From positions 10,001-74,000 of the forward strand of contig CACNVG010000001.1 of NCBI GenBank assembly GCA_902623785.1: a stretch of 64,000 nucleotides of DNA. Direction: 5' to 3'. The stretch's first letter is position 1. Each line of letters opens with the position of its first letter. The translations under genes were made by a program, and so were the position numbers. This DNA comes from an uncultured Pelagibacteraceae bacterium (GTDB taxonomy: Bacteria; Pseudomonadota; Alphaproteobacteria; Pelagibacterales; Pelagibacteraceae). Below the pieces are notes generated by a model. That model saw only the letters and a program-made list of their open reading frames with translations, did not search any database and was not told the DNA's origin. This document shows, in pieces, positions 28,931 through 46,721 of this stretch.

Positions 28931-29383
28931 ATGTTTTTATCGACGTACGAAAACAATATAGACAAAAAAGGAAGGGTATCTGTGCCTGCGCAATTTAGAT
29001 CACATTTGTCCAGCTTGGGTTTTAATAGTATTATTTGTTTCCCATCTTTTAATCAACAATGTTTAGAAGCTTGGCCTCAAGATAGAATTGAAAAAATATC
29101 AGATGCAATTGATAATCTAAATCCTTTTGAGGAAAAAAAAGATTATTTTGCTACCTCAATTTTATCAGAGAGTGTAAATTTAATTTTTGACACAGAGGGT
29201 AGAATTTCTCTAACAAAAAAACTTCTTCAACATTCAAAAATAAAAACAAGGATTTTATTTGTTGGTTTAGGCAAAACTTTCCAAATTTGGGAACCAATAT
29301 TATTTGAAAAATTTAAGGCAAAAGCTATCAAAAAATCAAACTTAAACAGGGCAAGTCTTAAATGGGAAAAAAAGATAAATTAA
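28931..29383 (+). CDS. mraZ: Division/cell-wall cluster transcriptional regulator MraZ
   Basis: 150 aa; FLSTYENNIDKKGRVSVPAQFRSHL. Confidence 0.95.
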   Translation: MFLSTYENNIDKKGRVSVPAQFRSHLSSLGFNSIICFPSFNQQCLEAWPQDRIEKISDAIDNLNPFEEKKDYFATSILSESVNLIFDTEGRISLTKKLLQHSKIKTRILFVGLGKTFQIWEPILFEKFKAKAIKKSNLNRASLKWEKKIN

Positions 29384-29399
29384 TAAAGAGGGGGGAATA

Positions 29400-30842
29400 A
29401 TGACAATTAATTTTAAAACACCAGAGATTAAAGAGCTCAAACCTAGAATACTGGTTTTAGGTGTAGGTGGAGCTGGAGGAAATGCAATTAACAAAATGAT
29501 TGAGAGTGGACTTCAAGGAGTTGAATTTGTAGCAGTTAATACAGACGCACAAGATTTAATCCACAGTAAAGCAAAGGCAAAAATACAAATTGGTTTAAAT
29601 TTAACAAAGGGTCTAGGCGCTGGATCAAAAATTGATATTGGTCAAGCTGCTGCTGACGAGTCGTTAAATGAAATAGTAAATTGTTTACAAGGAGCAAACA
29701 TGGTTTTCATAACTGCAGGAATGGGTGGTGGAACAGGAACTGGATCTGCACATGTAATTGCTCGAGCTGCAAAGGAACTTAATATTCTAACAGTAGGTGT
29801 TGTCACTTTACCTTTTTTATATGAGGGCTCATCCAGAATGAGAAGAGCTCAACAAGGTTTAGAGGAATTAAGAAAACATGTCGATACTATTATAGTAGTT
29901 CCTAATCAAAATTTATTTAAGATTGCAAATGAGAAGACAACTTTTGAAGAGTCTTTTGAACTTTCAAACGATGTACTTCTACAAGGTGTTCAAAGTGTAA
30001 CTGATTTAATGGTACGTCCTGGTTTAGTCAATTTAGACTTCGCCGACGTGGAGTCTATAATGAGCTCAATGGGTAAAGCGATGATGGGTACTGGTGAAGC
30101 TGAAGGTGAAAATAGAGCTATTAACGCTGCTGAACAAGCTATAAGCAATCCTCTTATCGATGACTATTCTTTAAAAGGTGCTAAAGGTTTGTTAATAAAT
30201 ATTACTGGTGGTAAAGATTTAACACTTTTTGAAGTTGATGAAGTTGTAAAAAAAATTACCTCTGAGGTAGATCCTGAGGTGGAATTCATAAAAGGGTGCA
30301 TAATTGATCCATCTCTAGAAGGTAGATTAAGAGTTTCAATTGTTGCAACTTCGTTAGATGGACAGCAACCTGAGTCAAAATCAGTTATCAATATGGTTCA
30401 TAGAATTCAAAACCGAAATCCAGGCTATTCAGACTTTTCAAATTTGAAACCAAATTATTCTTATGAAATGAATCAAGGATTATCAACTAGTGGTGCCAAT
30501 GCATTAAAAATAGAAACTAACGATATCAAAGTTTCAGAAAATGACTTGATCTCATCTATGGTAGATGAAAAAATGGCAGTTGAAAATCCTACAACAAGTG
30601 AAGGTGTTAATGATGAAAGTTCTCTTGAGGAAAAACTGATACTTAGCGATAATGCTGTAGATACCACAGGCGACGAATCTAATGGACTTGAAAACTTTAA
30701 TTTAGATGTACAGGATCCTCAATTATTTGACGAGAGTCAAAATATAAACTCTGATCACGAAACAAATATAAATGAGGATAGTGATACAGATGAAGAAGAT
30801 GAACTAGAAATACCAGCATTTTTAAGAAGACAAAAAAATTAA
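29400..30842 (+). CDS. ftsZ: Cell division GTPase FtsZ
   Basis: GVGGAGGNAINKMI, GMGGGTGTGSAHVIA, C-terminal peptide EIPAFLRRQ; strong SD GAGGGGGG. Confidence 0.98.
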   Translation: MTINFKTPEIKELKPRILVLGVGGAGGNAINKMIESGLQGVEFVAVNTDAQDLIHSKAKAKIQIGLNLTKGLGAGSKIDIGQAAADESLNEIVNCLQGANMVFITAGMGGGTGTGSAHVIARAAKELNILTVGVVTLPFLYEGSSRMRRAQQGLEELRKHVDTIIVVPNQNLFKIANEKTTFEESFELSNDVLLQGVQSVTDLMVRPGLVNLDFADVESIMSSMGKAMMGTGEAEGENRAINAAEQAISNPLIDDYSLKGAKGLLINITGGKDLTLFEVDEVVKKITSEVDPEVEFIKGCIIDPSLEGRLRVSIVATSLDGQQPESKSVINMVHRIQNRNPGYSDFSNLKPNYSYEMNQGLSTSGANALKIETNDIKVSENDLISSMVDEKMAVENPTTSEGVNDESSLEEKLILSDNAVDTTGDESNGLENFNLDVQDPQLFDESQNINSDHETNINEDSDTDEEDELEIPAFLRRQKN

Positions 30843-30860
30843 TGGTCTTCGAAAAAATAA

Positions 30861-31865
30861 ATGAGTGCCACTATTTTACCGGAAAAAAACTTGCATTATC
30901 CGGTTCTTCTAAATGAAGTAATAGATATTATAACCCCTCAAAATGGTGGCACTTTTATAGATTGTACATTTGGTCAAGGTGGTTACTCAAAAAAAATATT
31001 AGAATATCCAAACACTAAAGTAATAGCTATTGATAGAGATAAAAACTCTCAACACATTGCATCAGACTTCAAAAAAAAGTTTGAGGATAGATTTTCTTTT
31101 CATAATATTAAGTTTAGCCAAATAAAGGACTTAAATATCAAAAATGAAATTAAAGGTATAATTTTTGATTTAGGTTATTCTATAAATCAAATCAAAAATC
31201 TCTCAACAGGCTTGTCATTTGATAGCAAAGGCGAACTTAATATGAAGATGGGGCTAAATGATTTTTCTGCCAAAGACGTAATAAACAAGTTAGATCAAAA
31301 AGAATTAGAGCAAATTTTTAGATATTTTGGTGAAGAAAAAAATTCAAAACTTATATCCAAAAAAATTGTACTTGAGCGACAAAAAAAAAATTTAGATACT
31401 CAGGATTTGGTTAATATAGTAAAAAGAGTAAAAAAAAAGCATTATACAAAAACTAATCCAGCAACAAAAGTTTTCCAAGCTTTAAGAATTTTTGTAAACA
31501 AAGAAATAAGTGAACTCTCAAAGAGTTTAGAGGCATCTGCAAGTATTGTTAGTCAAAATGGAATAGTATTAACAGTATCGTTTCATTCGCTAGAAGACAA
31601 GATTTGTAAATTTTTTTTTAACCATCTTTCAAAACAAGACAAGGTTTCTAGATATTTACCAGAGAAAAAAACTACAAAAAAATCGTTTAGTCTTATAACA
31701 AAAAAACCTGTCACGCCCGATCCTCAGGAATTGAAATTAAATCCACCATCTAGATCTGCAAAATTAAGAGCGATAAAAAAAATTGGTCTATATGAAAATA
31801 ATATGAATGTATTTGAAAAATACGAAAGTTTATTAAAAATTGAAAACCTTTCCAAAAAACTATGA
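30861..31865 (+). CDS. rsmH: 16S rRNA m4C1402 methyltransferase RsmH (MraW)
   Basis: HYPVLLNEVIDIITPQNGGTFIDCTFGQGGYSKKIL...FDLGYS. Confidence 0.97.
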   Translation: MSATILPEKNLHYPVLLNEVIDIITPQNGGTFIDCTFGQGGYSKKILEYPNTKVIAIDRDKNSQHIASDFKKKFEDRFSFHNIKFSQIKDLNIKNEIKGIIFDLGYSINQIKNLSTGLSFDSKGELNMKMGLNDFSAKDVINKLDQKELEQIFRYFGEEKNSKLISKKIVLERQKKNLDTQDLVNIVKRVKKKHYTKTNPATKVFQALRIFVNKEISELSKSLEASASIVSQNGIVLTVSFHSLEDKICKFFFNHLSKQDKVSRYLPEKKTTKKSFSLITKKPVTPDPQELKLNPPSRSAKLRAIKKIGLYENNMNVFEKYESLLKIENLSKKL

Positions 31866-43468: not shown

Positions 43469-44380
43469 ATGAAAAAAAGAATTCTTATTCTTGGAGGCGG
43501 TATCTCAGGAGAAAGATCTATTAGTCTCAAAACTGCAAAAGCAGTGAAGAATTGCATTAAAAAAAAATACAATTGTAGAATAGTTGAACCTGATGAGAAT
43601 TTAACAAAAAATATTGAAAGATTTTCTCCACATGTTGTTTTTAATGCTTTACATGGAAGATTTGGTGAAGATGGTTTCATTCAATCTTATTTAGAAAGTA
43701 AAGGGGTAAGTTACACCCATTCAGGCGTTTTGTCTTCTATGATGTCAATGGATAAAGAAATTTCAAAAAAATTATTTATTAAAAATAAAATTTTAACACC
43801 AAAATTTAAAAAAATAAGAACAAATTTAAATAAAAAAGAAGTAATTAAATTATTAAAAAAAAAAATTAAGTTTCCTGTAGTTATTAAACCTTTAAACGAG
43901 GGATCAAGTTTGGGTGTTTATATTTGTAATGAAAAAAATATTATTCAAAATTTAAAAAAACTTAAAACTTATGATGAAATTTTAGTAGAAGAATTTATTC
44001 CAGGAAGAGAAATTCAAGTTGCAATTCTCGGTAAAAAAAAGTTAGGAGCAATAGAGTTAAAACCCAAAAGAAAGTTTTACGACTATAAGGCTAAATACAG
44101 CTTAAGGGCAAAAACAAAACATATTATTCCAGTAAATATTAAAACAAAAGAATATCAAAATGTGATGAATATTGCCTTAAAAGCCCACAAAGTTTTAAAG
44201 TGTAGAGGGGTTACCAGATCTGATTTTAAATTTAATAATGGAAAGTTTTACCTATTAGAACTTAACACTCAACCAGGAATGACAAATCTTTCATTAGTTC
44301 CAGAAATAGCTTTACATCATGGAATAAATTTCTTTTCATTAATAGACTGGATTATAAAAGATGCATCAAAAAATAGATAA
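43469..44380 (+). CDS. ddl: D-Ala-D-Ala ligase
   Basis: GGGISGERSISLKTAK, HGRFGEDG, PLNEGSSLGV, ELNTQPGMT. Confidence 0.96.
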   Translation: MKKRILILGGGISGERSISLKTAKAVKNCIKKKYNCRIVEPDENLTKNIERFSPHVVFNALHGRFGEDGFIQSYLESKGVSYTHSGVLSSMMSMDKEISKKLFIKNKILTPKFKKIRTNLNKKEVIKLLKKKIKFPVVIKPLNEGSSLGVYICNEKNIIQNLKKLKTYDEILVEEFIPGREIQVAILGKKKLGAIELKPKRKFYDYKAKYSLRAKTKHIIPVNIKTKEYQNVMNIALKAHKVLKCRGVTRSDFKFNNGKFYLLELNTQPGMTNLSLVPEIALHHGINFFSLIDWIIKDASKNR

Positions 44381-45032
44381 AAAATTTAATTTCTTTTTTT
44401 ATATTATTGTAATTTTTTTTTTATCATCGATTCATAATATTGAATTAAAACAACTAAATTTTTTTAAGATAAAAAAAATTTATGTAAATAGTGAAGACAG
44501 TAAACTTAATTTCATTGTAAAAAATAATTATAAAGATTTGATAGGTCAGAATATTTTTTTTTTAGAGAAAACATCATTTAGCATTCTTGATGATATGAAC
44601 AACATACATGAATATTCTGTTAAAAAAAGATTTCCTAATAAAATTTCTATTGAAATAGTCCCAACCAAACCAATTGCTAACGTAATAAGACCTGAAAAAA
44701 ATTTTTTTATAGGAAATAACGGTAAAAAAATAAAACCCTCATCAAAACAAGAAAATTTATTGAAAGTATATGGCTCAAATAATACTGGAAAAATTTTTCA
44801 AACATTAGGAATGATCCAAAAATCAGAAATAGAATTTTCTAATATAAAAAGCATCAAATTTTATCCAAGTGAAAGAATTGACATTATTCTTAAAAAAAAT
44901 CTTAAAATTAAATATCCAATAAATTTAGATTTAAAAATATTAAACTTAAGTAACAAAATTTTAGAAGACGATAAATTTAAAAACGCAAAAGAAATTGATT
45001 TAAGAGTAAAAAATCAGATAATTAAAAAATGA
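44361..45032 (+). CDS. ftsQ: FtsQ-like POTRA division protein
   Basis: N-terminal TM, POTRA-like (VKKRFPNKISIEIVPTKPIANV), position between ddl and ftsA locus. Confidence 0.82.
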   Translation: MHQKIDKKFNFFFYIIVIFFLSSIHNIELKQLNFFKIKKIYVNSEDSKLNFIVKNNYKDLIGQNIFFLEKTSFSILDDMNNIHEYSVKKRFPNKISIEIVPTKPIANVIRPEKNFFIGNNGKKIKPSSKQENLLKVYGSNNTGKIFQTLGMIQKSEIEFSNIKSIKFYPSERIDIILKKNLKIKYPINLDLKILNLSNKILEDDKFKNAKEIDLRVKNQIIKK

Positions 45033-45733
45033 AAAAAGCTAAAAATAAAGAATTTTTTTTTAGTATTGTGGAAAATATTTTTTGCATTAGTTATTTCGAT
45101 ACCAATAAAAATAAATTAATCAATTATCATAATTTTGAATTACCAGATAATTTTGAAAATGAACTCAATTTTGAAATATTGATTAAATTTTTTGCAGAAA
45201 AAATAAAAAAAATCGAAAAAGAAAACAGTTTTTTTATTGAAAGTGCAAATATTTTGGTAGACTTTGAGTCTCATTTATTGTCATTATCAATTAAAAATTT
45301 GGTAGATAAGAAAATCTCTGAAGAAAAAGATGTTATAAGGTTGATAAAAGATGCAAAACAATTAATAACAAAGTCTAATAGTTCTGAAACAATTTTACAT
45401 ATTTTGATAAATAAATATTTATTCGATAAAATCGAATACTTAAATTTTCCAGAAAATTTGTCTTACTCAGAACTTATCTTAGACTTAAGTTTTATTACTT
45501 TAAAAAATGATAGGATAAAGAAAACTCAAGACATATTTAAAAATTGTGATGTAATGTTAAACAAGTTCATTGCATACGATTATTCCAAAAATTTTATTAA
45601 AGAAGGTGATGTTAATAATTGCATTGCCGCAAAGAGAATTAATGATGGAGAAAACCCTTCAGAAGTAAAAATCCTAAGCATTATTAAGAAAGACCAAGGT
45701 TTTTTTGAAAAATTGTTCAATTTAATGGGATAA
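45029..45733 (+). CDS. Truncated/divergent FtsA-like protein at the ftsA position
   Basis: 234 aa; central segment VDKKISEEKDVIRLIKDAKQLITKSNSSETILHILINKYLFDKIEYLNFPENLSYSELILDLSFITLKNDRI aligns by eye with the FtsA 1C (SHS2) subdomain; C-terminal GFFEKLFNLMG resembles the FtsA amphipathic tail; no phosphate-binding DIGGGT-type motif. Confidence 0.65.
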   Translation: MKKAKNKEFFFSIVENIFCISYFDTNKNKLINYHNFELPDNFENELNFEILIKFFAEKIKKIEKENSFFIESANILVDFESHLLSLSIKNLVDKKISEEKDVIRLIKDAKQLITKSNSSETILHILINKYLFDKIEYLNFPENLSYSELILDLSFITLKNDRIKKTQDIFKNCDVMLNKFIAYDYSKNFIKEGDVNNCIAAKRINDGENPSEVKILSIIKKDQGFFEKLFNLMG

Positions 45734-45800
45734 AACCTGTATTGTTTTGTAATATAACTTGTTTTTCATGTTTATTTTGATCAGTTTATAAGTCTTTCCC

Positions 45801-46721
45801 ATGTCAATCTTAAAACAAAAAACAATTAAAAAACCGATAACTCTTTCTGGGATAGGTCTGCACTCAGGAAAAGAAGCTAATATTAAGCTTTTACCTGGCT
45901 CTCCAAATTCAGGCATAATATTTAAAAGATGCGATTTAAAAAATAATAATCTCATTTATCCAAGTGTTTTCAACGTAACAAGTGCTTCTTATTGTACTAA
46001 AATCACAAATGAAAGTGGGGCATCAGTTTCTACCGTAGAACATCTTATGGCAGCATTATGCGGTAAGGGAATTGATAATATAATAATCGAGATTGACTCT
46101 GAGGAAATTCCGATTTTAGATGGTTCAGCAAAAGTATTCACAAGTGAAATTGATAAAGTTGGTTTAGATGTTAGTGATTATCCAATAAAAATAATTACTA
46201 TTAATAAAAAAGTAACATTCAAAGATGGAGAAAAATTTATAACGTTTGAACCAAATAGTATTAGTCTCGAAATAGACTTTGAAATTAAGTTTGCAAATAG
46301 TTTAATTGGTAATCAAAAAAATAAAATTAATATATACATGGATGATTTAACTAATATGTATAATTCAAGAACATTCTGCTTATTCGAAGATATTGAAAAA
46401 TTGAAAAAAATGAACTTGGCAAAAGGTGGAAGTTTAGATAATGCAATTGTGGTTAAAAAAGATAAAATATTAAATAAGGAAAATTTACGGAATGACAAGG
46501 AATTTGTGAATCATAAAATCCTTGATTGTTTAGGTGATATATATCTTACAGGGTACAAACTAGTTGGCAAAGTTACATCAAGCCAAGGTGGACATAATAT
46601 CACCAATTTAGGATTAAGAAAATTACTGAGTGAAAACGATAATTTTTCAGTGTTAGAACTTAAAGAAAAAAATATACCTCATTCCTTCCTTAATAAGAAT
46701 ATTTTAAAATCTATTGCATAA
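45801..46721 (+). CDS. lpxC: UDP-3-O-acyl-GlcNAc deacetylase LpxC
   Basis: ITLSGIGLHSGKEANIKLLP, VSTVEHLMAAL, LDGSAKVF, GGSLDNAIV. Confidence 0.97.
   Translation: MSILKQKTIKKPITLSGIGLHSGKEANIKLLPGSPNSGIIFKRCDLKNNNLIYPSVFNVTSASYCTKITNESGASVSTVEHLMAALCGKGIDNIIIEIDSEEIPILDGSAKVFTSEIDKVGLDVSDYPIKIITINKKVTFKDGEKFITFEPNSISLEIDFEIKFANSLIGNQKNKINIYMDDLTNMYNSRTFCLFEDIEKLKKMNLAKGGSLDNAIVVKKDKILNKENLRNDKEFVNHKILDCLGDIYLTGYKLVGKVTSSQGGHNITNLGLRKLLSENDNFSVLELKEKNIPHSFLNKNILKSIA

Follow-up and report, generated by a model that had tools for sequence, protein, structure and literature searches.

The ATPase cycle and the polymerization of FtsA are treated as central to both the attachment of the Z-ring and the constriction switch. 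Within the FtsA protein, subdomain 1C recruits FtsN, subdomain 2B binds FtsZ, and the ATP pocket is located between 1A, 2A, and 2B (PMC8998562). FtsN occupies the IA-IC cleft, the longitudinal contacts of the filaments are made by IIA and IIB, and the lateral contacts of the double filaments are formed between IC subdomains (PMC7613929). FtsA* with a free 1C recruits FtsN early (PMC9426451), and the ATP-site mutants E14R and D210A of E. coli FtsA do not support growth (PMC10213515). In Caulobacter, FtsA arrives late, while other FtsZ-binding proteins arrive early (PMC8429850). Our search of the open-access literature yielded no paper on the FtsA of SAR11; in two papers, both terms occur, but no more than incidentally.

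The ftsQ-lpxC Interval Carries a Short ftsA Gene

The window, i.e., the whole stretch of 64,000 nucleotides of SAR11 (Pelagibacteraceae) DNA analyzed here, possesses a dcw cluster comprising mraZ, ftsZ, mraW, a gene for an FtsI-type transpeptidase, additional mur genes, murC, murB, ddl, ftsQ, mini-ftsA, and lpxC, in which those genes not covered by a profile scan were named by position and sequence (Table 1). The preliminary description of this DNA had reported a protein of only 234 amino acids between ftsQ and lpxC, and both slot and length are as described there (ORF 45029-45733). It had also considered a 2A/2B region hidden by a frameshift to be unlikely; indeed, the start of mini-ftsA lies inside the final ftsQ codons and the 67-nt gap that separates its stop from lpxC is too small for 2A/2B in any frame. 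The position of mini-ftsA in the division cluster, next to ftsQ, is that of a canonical ftsA gene. The order ddl-ftsQ-[mini-ftsA]-lpxC was found in the loci examined, and congeners carry a full-length ftsA in the identical slot.

Table 1. Features of the mini-ftsA locus and of mini-FtsA, in window coordinates.
Feature	Position	Strand	Basis or remark
mini-ftsA (domain-1-only FtsA)	45029..45733	+	234 aa; ATG 45029, stop ends 45733
ftsQ, upstream neighbor	44361..45032	+	PF03799; 4-nt overlap with mini-ftsA
lpxC, downstream neighbor	45801..46721	+	PF03331, E 1e-90
ftsZ, conserved C-terminal peptide EIPAFLRRQ intact	29400..30842	+	
N-terminal part of subdomain 1A, codons 7-78	45047..45262	+	secondary structure versus full-length congener; three strands, long helix, strand
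Subdomain 1C (SHS2), codons 82-159	45272..45505	+	PF02491/TIGR01174 matches; model
1A after 1C, codons 160-189	45506..45595	+	helix, strand, helix; two models compared
2A+2B deletion junction, codons 190-196	45596..45616	+	most variable stretch
C-terminal 1A helix, retained, codons 197-205	45617..45643	+	two models compared
Amphipathic membrane-targeting helix FFEKLFNLMG (predicted), codons 225-234	45701..45730	+	most conserved part

Two further properties of the region were observed. The ftsZ gene is situated between mraZ and mraW (window 28931-31865), about 14 kb away from ftsA instead of directly 3' of it, and the distance is similar in those congeners that have both genes on one contig. 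The gap between ftsA and lpxC (window 45734-45800; 61-68 nt in the corresponding interval of 63 named loci) contains a strongly conserved element that reads roughly GTATTTTnnTGTAAYATTnSTTGTTTTT, with GTAAYA present in 63 of 63 loci, and a TATAAG-like box often precedes lpxC. The conserved element is perhaps a regulatory site or the promoter of lpxC.

The Short Protein Is an FtsA by Descent

The ORF at 45029-45733 is a real, selected derivative of FtsA. Its product matches TIGR01174 (ftsA) with an E-value of 8e-6, residues 89-183 being collinear with profile positions 89-180. The score of 25.1 bits does not reach the NCBI equivalog cut-off (175.85 bits), and the full-length FtsAs of congeners likewise score under it. 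At E<0.01, the same profile is matched by 29 of 40 short homologues, the best of them reaching 2e-13. Comparison of 13 short forms with seven full-length congeneric proteins by hhalign gave a probability of 99.9% (E 1e-35) over residues 5-190, and a PDB profile search with mini-FtsA returned the FtsA proteins of E. coli, Xenorhabdus, and Vibrio as first matches. These data bear out the earlier assignment of the middle of the protein to FtsA subdomain 1C. An AlphaFold model, proposed earlier as a check, was built with 40 homologues (pLDDT 88.7, pTM 0.81), and when it was compared by Foldseek with the PDB, the best 19 matches were all FtsA chains, with PilM and GspL next in rank. The match, with a query TM of 0.71 to the FtsA:FtsN complex 7q6i, is strong for 1A-1C. 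A search of a viral structure library returned no meaningful match.

Domain 1 Is Retained and Domain 2 Is Missing

As a reference for the anatomy of mini-FtsA, we used the model of L142, a congeneric protein of full length (398 aa), the best PDB matches of which are FtsA over its whole extent. In the mini-FtsA model, 1A begins with strands 7-14, 17-24, and 29-37, helix 45-66, and strand 72-77; 1C consists of strand 82-96, helix 99-116, and strands 120-132, 135-137, and 145-159; and 1A resumes with helix 160-172, strand 176-182, and helix 183-189. All 13 elements up to this last helix (ending at residue 189 in mini-FtsA and 196 in L142) are common to both models and occur in the same order. What follows in L142, from strand 201-207 to strand 348-353, is the entire 2A + 2B block, and it is this block of about 155 residues (~201-353) that is missing at the junction of the short form. 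Within this block lie FLDIGYEKT, the phosphate-2 motif, and LIGQGS, a motif of the adenosine type. Beyond the junction, the two models again share the last 1A helix (197-205 in mini-FtsA, 358-369 in L142) and the C-terminal amphipathic helix (225-233 and 389-397, respectively). Since the elements are collinear between the models, mini-FtsA is, judged from sequence and predicted structure, a protein from which a single internal module (2A+2B) has been excised and in which domain 1 (1A with 1C inserted) has been rejoined. The preliminary description was therefore right that 2A/2B is absent and that 1C and the tail GFFEKLFNLMG are kept, but these are not the only parts kept, as the N-terminal ~78 residues and residues 160-205 also belong to FtsA (1A).

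The retained part of the ATP site has decayed. The phosphate-1 Asp is present in 10 of 10 long forms and in none of 54 short forms, and the phosphate-1 Gly in 10 of 10 and one of 54, respectively; in the long helix of the N-terminal 1A part, E63 is invariant and K64 near-invariant. With phosphate-2 and adenosine motifs gone together with 2A, none of the canonical ATP-binding motifs is intact. The 1C (SHS2) subdomain inserted into 1A and the C-terminal amphipathic helix (by sequence and hydrophobic moment) of canonical FtsA are present, while 2A and 2B, which would complete a two-domain actin fold, are absent, and with 2B the canonical binding site of the FtsZ peptide. Because the ATP-binding and FtsZ-binding features for which we tested are lacking, mini-FtsA is not a canonical FtsA by function. 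Across the short forms, column entropy is lowest in the membrane helix (0.95, versus 1.7-2.8 elsewhere), and the list of conserved positions is short (E63/K64, K89, the tail motif, and few others). Several full-length Pelagibacter FtsAs keep the tail motif G-x-N-x-x-E-V that is common to the short forms. The full-length proteins of this genus are highly divergent (L010, L015, L017, L019, L020, L022, L023, L135, L137, L142, L148, L154, L165, L166, L168, L169, L170).

Occurrence, Distribution, and Number of Origins

The mini-FtsA protein served as query against relatives, and its profile as query against the genus, where 282 of 399 genomes matched (both forms counted). Well over 130 congeneric genomes have an open frame of the short kind, 220-246 aa in length. 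Eighty named loci were fetched through lpxC, and hence independently of the state of ftsA; 53 of them carry an uninterrupted short form, of constant length and always at the same locus, and 10 an uninterrupted long one (369-398 aa), with none between 246 and 369 aa. Finished single-contig genomes are found on both sides: G106, G321, G408, and G424 have the short form, and G427 and G428, as well as the three-contig G179, the long one. A full-length ftsA elsewhere in the genome had been named as a point to be checked. None was found in the genome of the window (75% complete, 26 contigs), for which the MreB sequence was inspected, and in the finished Pelagibacter genomes, those with the short form included, a TIGR01174 search for a second FtsA otherwise returned only frames with the size and position of MreB and DnaK.

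A survey across SAR11, likewise suggested earlier for the ftsQ-lpxC interval, revealed the short form in many Pelagibacter genomes and full-length proteins in other congeners and in the other sampled genera. In the sister family and in the remaining genera of the family (g5-g10), FtsA is full-length, mostly with 396-420 aa (about 370-420 aa when congeners are included). No short FtsA was seen in these other sampled SAR11 genera, apart from a few frames of only 216-326 aa, which may be cut by contig ends. A survey of 395 alphaproteobacteria yielded none among the matches listed, from which weak matches could be missing; they include one frame of 228 aa near a contig end. The short form thus looks restricted to the genus Pelagibacter among SAR11.

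In a tree of the neighboring genes (LpxC, Ddl, MurB, MurC, BamD, LigA), the long-form loci L135, L137, and L138 branch as sisters to a large clade of short forms (99-100% support), and the long L142 groups loosely with the short L124. An AU test on this tree rejected a single short clade (p 2e-5; 0.003 without L124). On the tree of ftsA domain 1, a single short clade was not rejected (p 0.32), and the grouping of the neighboring genes was disfavored (p 0.026). The spacing between the conserved Tyr and the EV motif is 29-30 residues across the short clades. The two trees are compatible with loss of the module at least twice at the same boundary, or with a single loss and exchange of short and long alleles by recombination. 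The L124 protein (L124:9221-9931) is a short form with a long-like tail (NKQEV...KKKGFFEKLFHFFK) and possibly represents an independent, more recent 2A-2B deletion.

FtsZ and Candidate Partners

The FtsZ protein encoded in the window ends with LEIPAFLRRQKN, and it still carries EIPAFLRRQ, as had been stated before. In 16 species with the short form and 11 with the long one, this core is the same, and we found no change of the FtsZ tail accompanying the loss of 2B in a comparison of the two sets. Since the loss of 2B did not relax the FtsZ tail, the peptide would either have another receptor or be bound by mini-FtsA in a new way. That any contact with FtsZ must differ from the canonical one, as already proposed, follows from the absence of 2B.

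With the SPOR model, no bitopic SPOR-type FtsN was detected, even in finished Pelagibacter genomes. FtsN was consequently set aside as a partner of 1C, the search having given only RlpA-like lipoproteins (L202-L207; 248-284 aa). Several long-form species have no SPOR match at all. No replacement FtsZ anchor was found among the candidates considered; ZapA is present in all, and ZapA is not a membrane anchor.

Proposed Role and Alternative Explanations

We regard mini-FtsA as probably a non-ATPase, non-polymerizing membrane adaptor of the divisome with a permanently exposed 1C, FtsZ being tethered otherwise. With 2A/2B missing and phosphate-1 decayed, and given the established structure of FtsA, the protein cannot build the ATP pocket between the domains, make the longitudinal contact of 2A with 2B, or offer the FtsZ tail its site in 2B; the earlier proposal of a non-ATPase is supported by the same sequence features. 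Mini-FtsA would most likely reside at the midcell membrane as the recruiting half of FtsA, where its 1A-1C cleft would hold a bitopic divisome protein by its cytoplasmic tail and thereby signal to FtsWI/FtsQLB. The IA-IC cleft is the FtsN site in gammaproteobacteria. Subdomain 1C may self-associate laterally, and mini-FtsA would, by analogy, correspond to an FtsA locked in the non-polymerized signaling state, like the self-interaction-defective FtsA*. The tethering of FtsZ may have been taken over by a different protein that binds the tail, or by mini-FtsA itself through a new site. Against the adaptor reading stand the lack of a recognizable FtsN and of an identified replacement anchor, and the invariant FtsZ tail fits equally well with a mini-FtsA that still binds it.

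This last point leads to the alternative that mini-FtsA is a minimal FtsZ anchor, whose domain 1 came to bind the FtsZ tail at a new site and which keeps the membrane link without 2B or ATP. We consider this to be rather unlikely, although the strict conservation of EIPAFLRRQ in both kinds of species, the status of the membrane helix as the best conserved part of the protein, and the failure to find another anchor all speak for it. The known FtsZ-tail site resides in the lost 2B, there are few conserved positions to form a new one, and the FtsZ tail serves as a hub on which other proteins converge, which means that its conservation needs no FtsA. A cut at a natural domain boundary would also suit a split FtsA, in which a 2A-2B half encoded elsewhere assembles in trans with mini-FtsA. 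However, six-frame searches with TIGR01174 and PF14450 of the genome of the window and of finished short-form genomes returned only MreB (about 344 aa), DnaK, and mini-FtsA itself, and an ATPase assembled in trans would need the phosphate-1 residues that the retained 1A has lost; a split protein is thus very improbable.

We judge it to be just as improbable that the gene is a decaying remnant heading for loss in a streamlined genome. In favor of decay, its dN/dS exceeds that of lpxC, the full-length congeneric FtsAs that all fall under the TIGR01174 cut-off are divergent as well, and in the finished genome G012 mini-ftsA is frameshifted within a T/A homopolymer (L018:1500-1545). The frame downstream of this break is intact to the membrane helix, and the break may reflect a sequencing slip, transcriptional slippage, or a real lesion. 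A pseudogene is, however, at odds with the dN/dS of 0.10-0.30 in ten close pairs, the open frame of constant length in the named short-form loci, the conserved membrane helix, and the confident fold. Complete loss of ftsA from the 20 genomes without a match was likewise rejected for 19, as lpxC is missing there too and the locus was simply not assembled; in the twentieth (G097), the contig (L201) stops a short way 5' of lpxC, and the interval lies outside its coverage. An assembly or sequencing deletion, suggested by the incomplete and fragmented genome of the window and named earlier as a point to be checked, is refuted by the same architecture in the more than 130 independent congeneric genomes, finished single-contig chromosomes among them, and carries next to no weight. 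The tests led us to reject a pseudogene, an assembly error, a split gene, and a second FtsA alike.

With the adaptor reading, we lean, with some hesitation, to a wider view: part of Pelagibacter would have discarded the actin-like half of the divisome and would divide with FtsZ and an ATP-independent, non-filamentous FtsA domain-1 adaptor, a change that on the chromosomal tree happened more than once, by repeated deletion or by allele exchange. Because the ATP- and FtsZ-binding half was lost and the membrane anchor and partner-binding half were kept, canonical FtsA function cannot be required for the division of many Pelagibacter, which are among the most abundant bacteria of the ocean. A natural, conserved FtsA without its ATP/FtsZ-binding half separates the functions of FtsA by evolution and argues that the membrane-bound domain 1 is the irreducible part. 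Close relatives with and without domain 2 offer a ready comparison in the search for a replacement FtsZ anchor and for the question of whether the signaling form of FtsA is the non-polymerized one.

Comparison With Known Systems

Among the actin-fold adaptors that operate at the membrane, PilM and the cytoplasmic domain of GspL/EpsL resemble mini-FtsA, but they rank next after FtsA in Foldseek (query TM 0.37-0.48, a weaker match) and serve different systems, in different gene contexts. With its 1C-like subdomain, PilM is similar to mini-FtsA; it binds the tail of the bitopic PilN and, unlike mini-FtsA, keeps both halves of the actin fold. Mini-FtsA is not a PilM: the FtsA matches stand above all PilM matches, and the gene context is that of a division cluster, not of a pil locus. 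With canonical FtsA (TIGR01174; PDB 7q6d from E. coli, 7q6i from V. maritimus with FtsN, 4a2a from T. maritima with the FtsZ peptide), mini-FtsA shares the dcw locus after ftsQ, the order of 1A and 1C, and the C-terminal amphipathic helix. It differs in lacking 2A, 2B, and phosphate-1, and with them the ATP pocket, the 2A-2B filament contact, and the known FtsZ-peptide site. The FtsA* and other self-interaction-defective alleles of E. coli are point mutants of a complete protein in which the FtsZ-binding 2B is still present, but their non-polymerized state with an exposed 1C is the one that we would expect of mini-FtsA.
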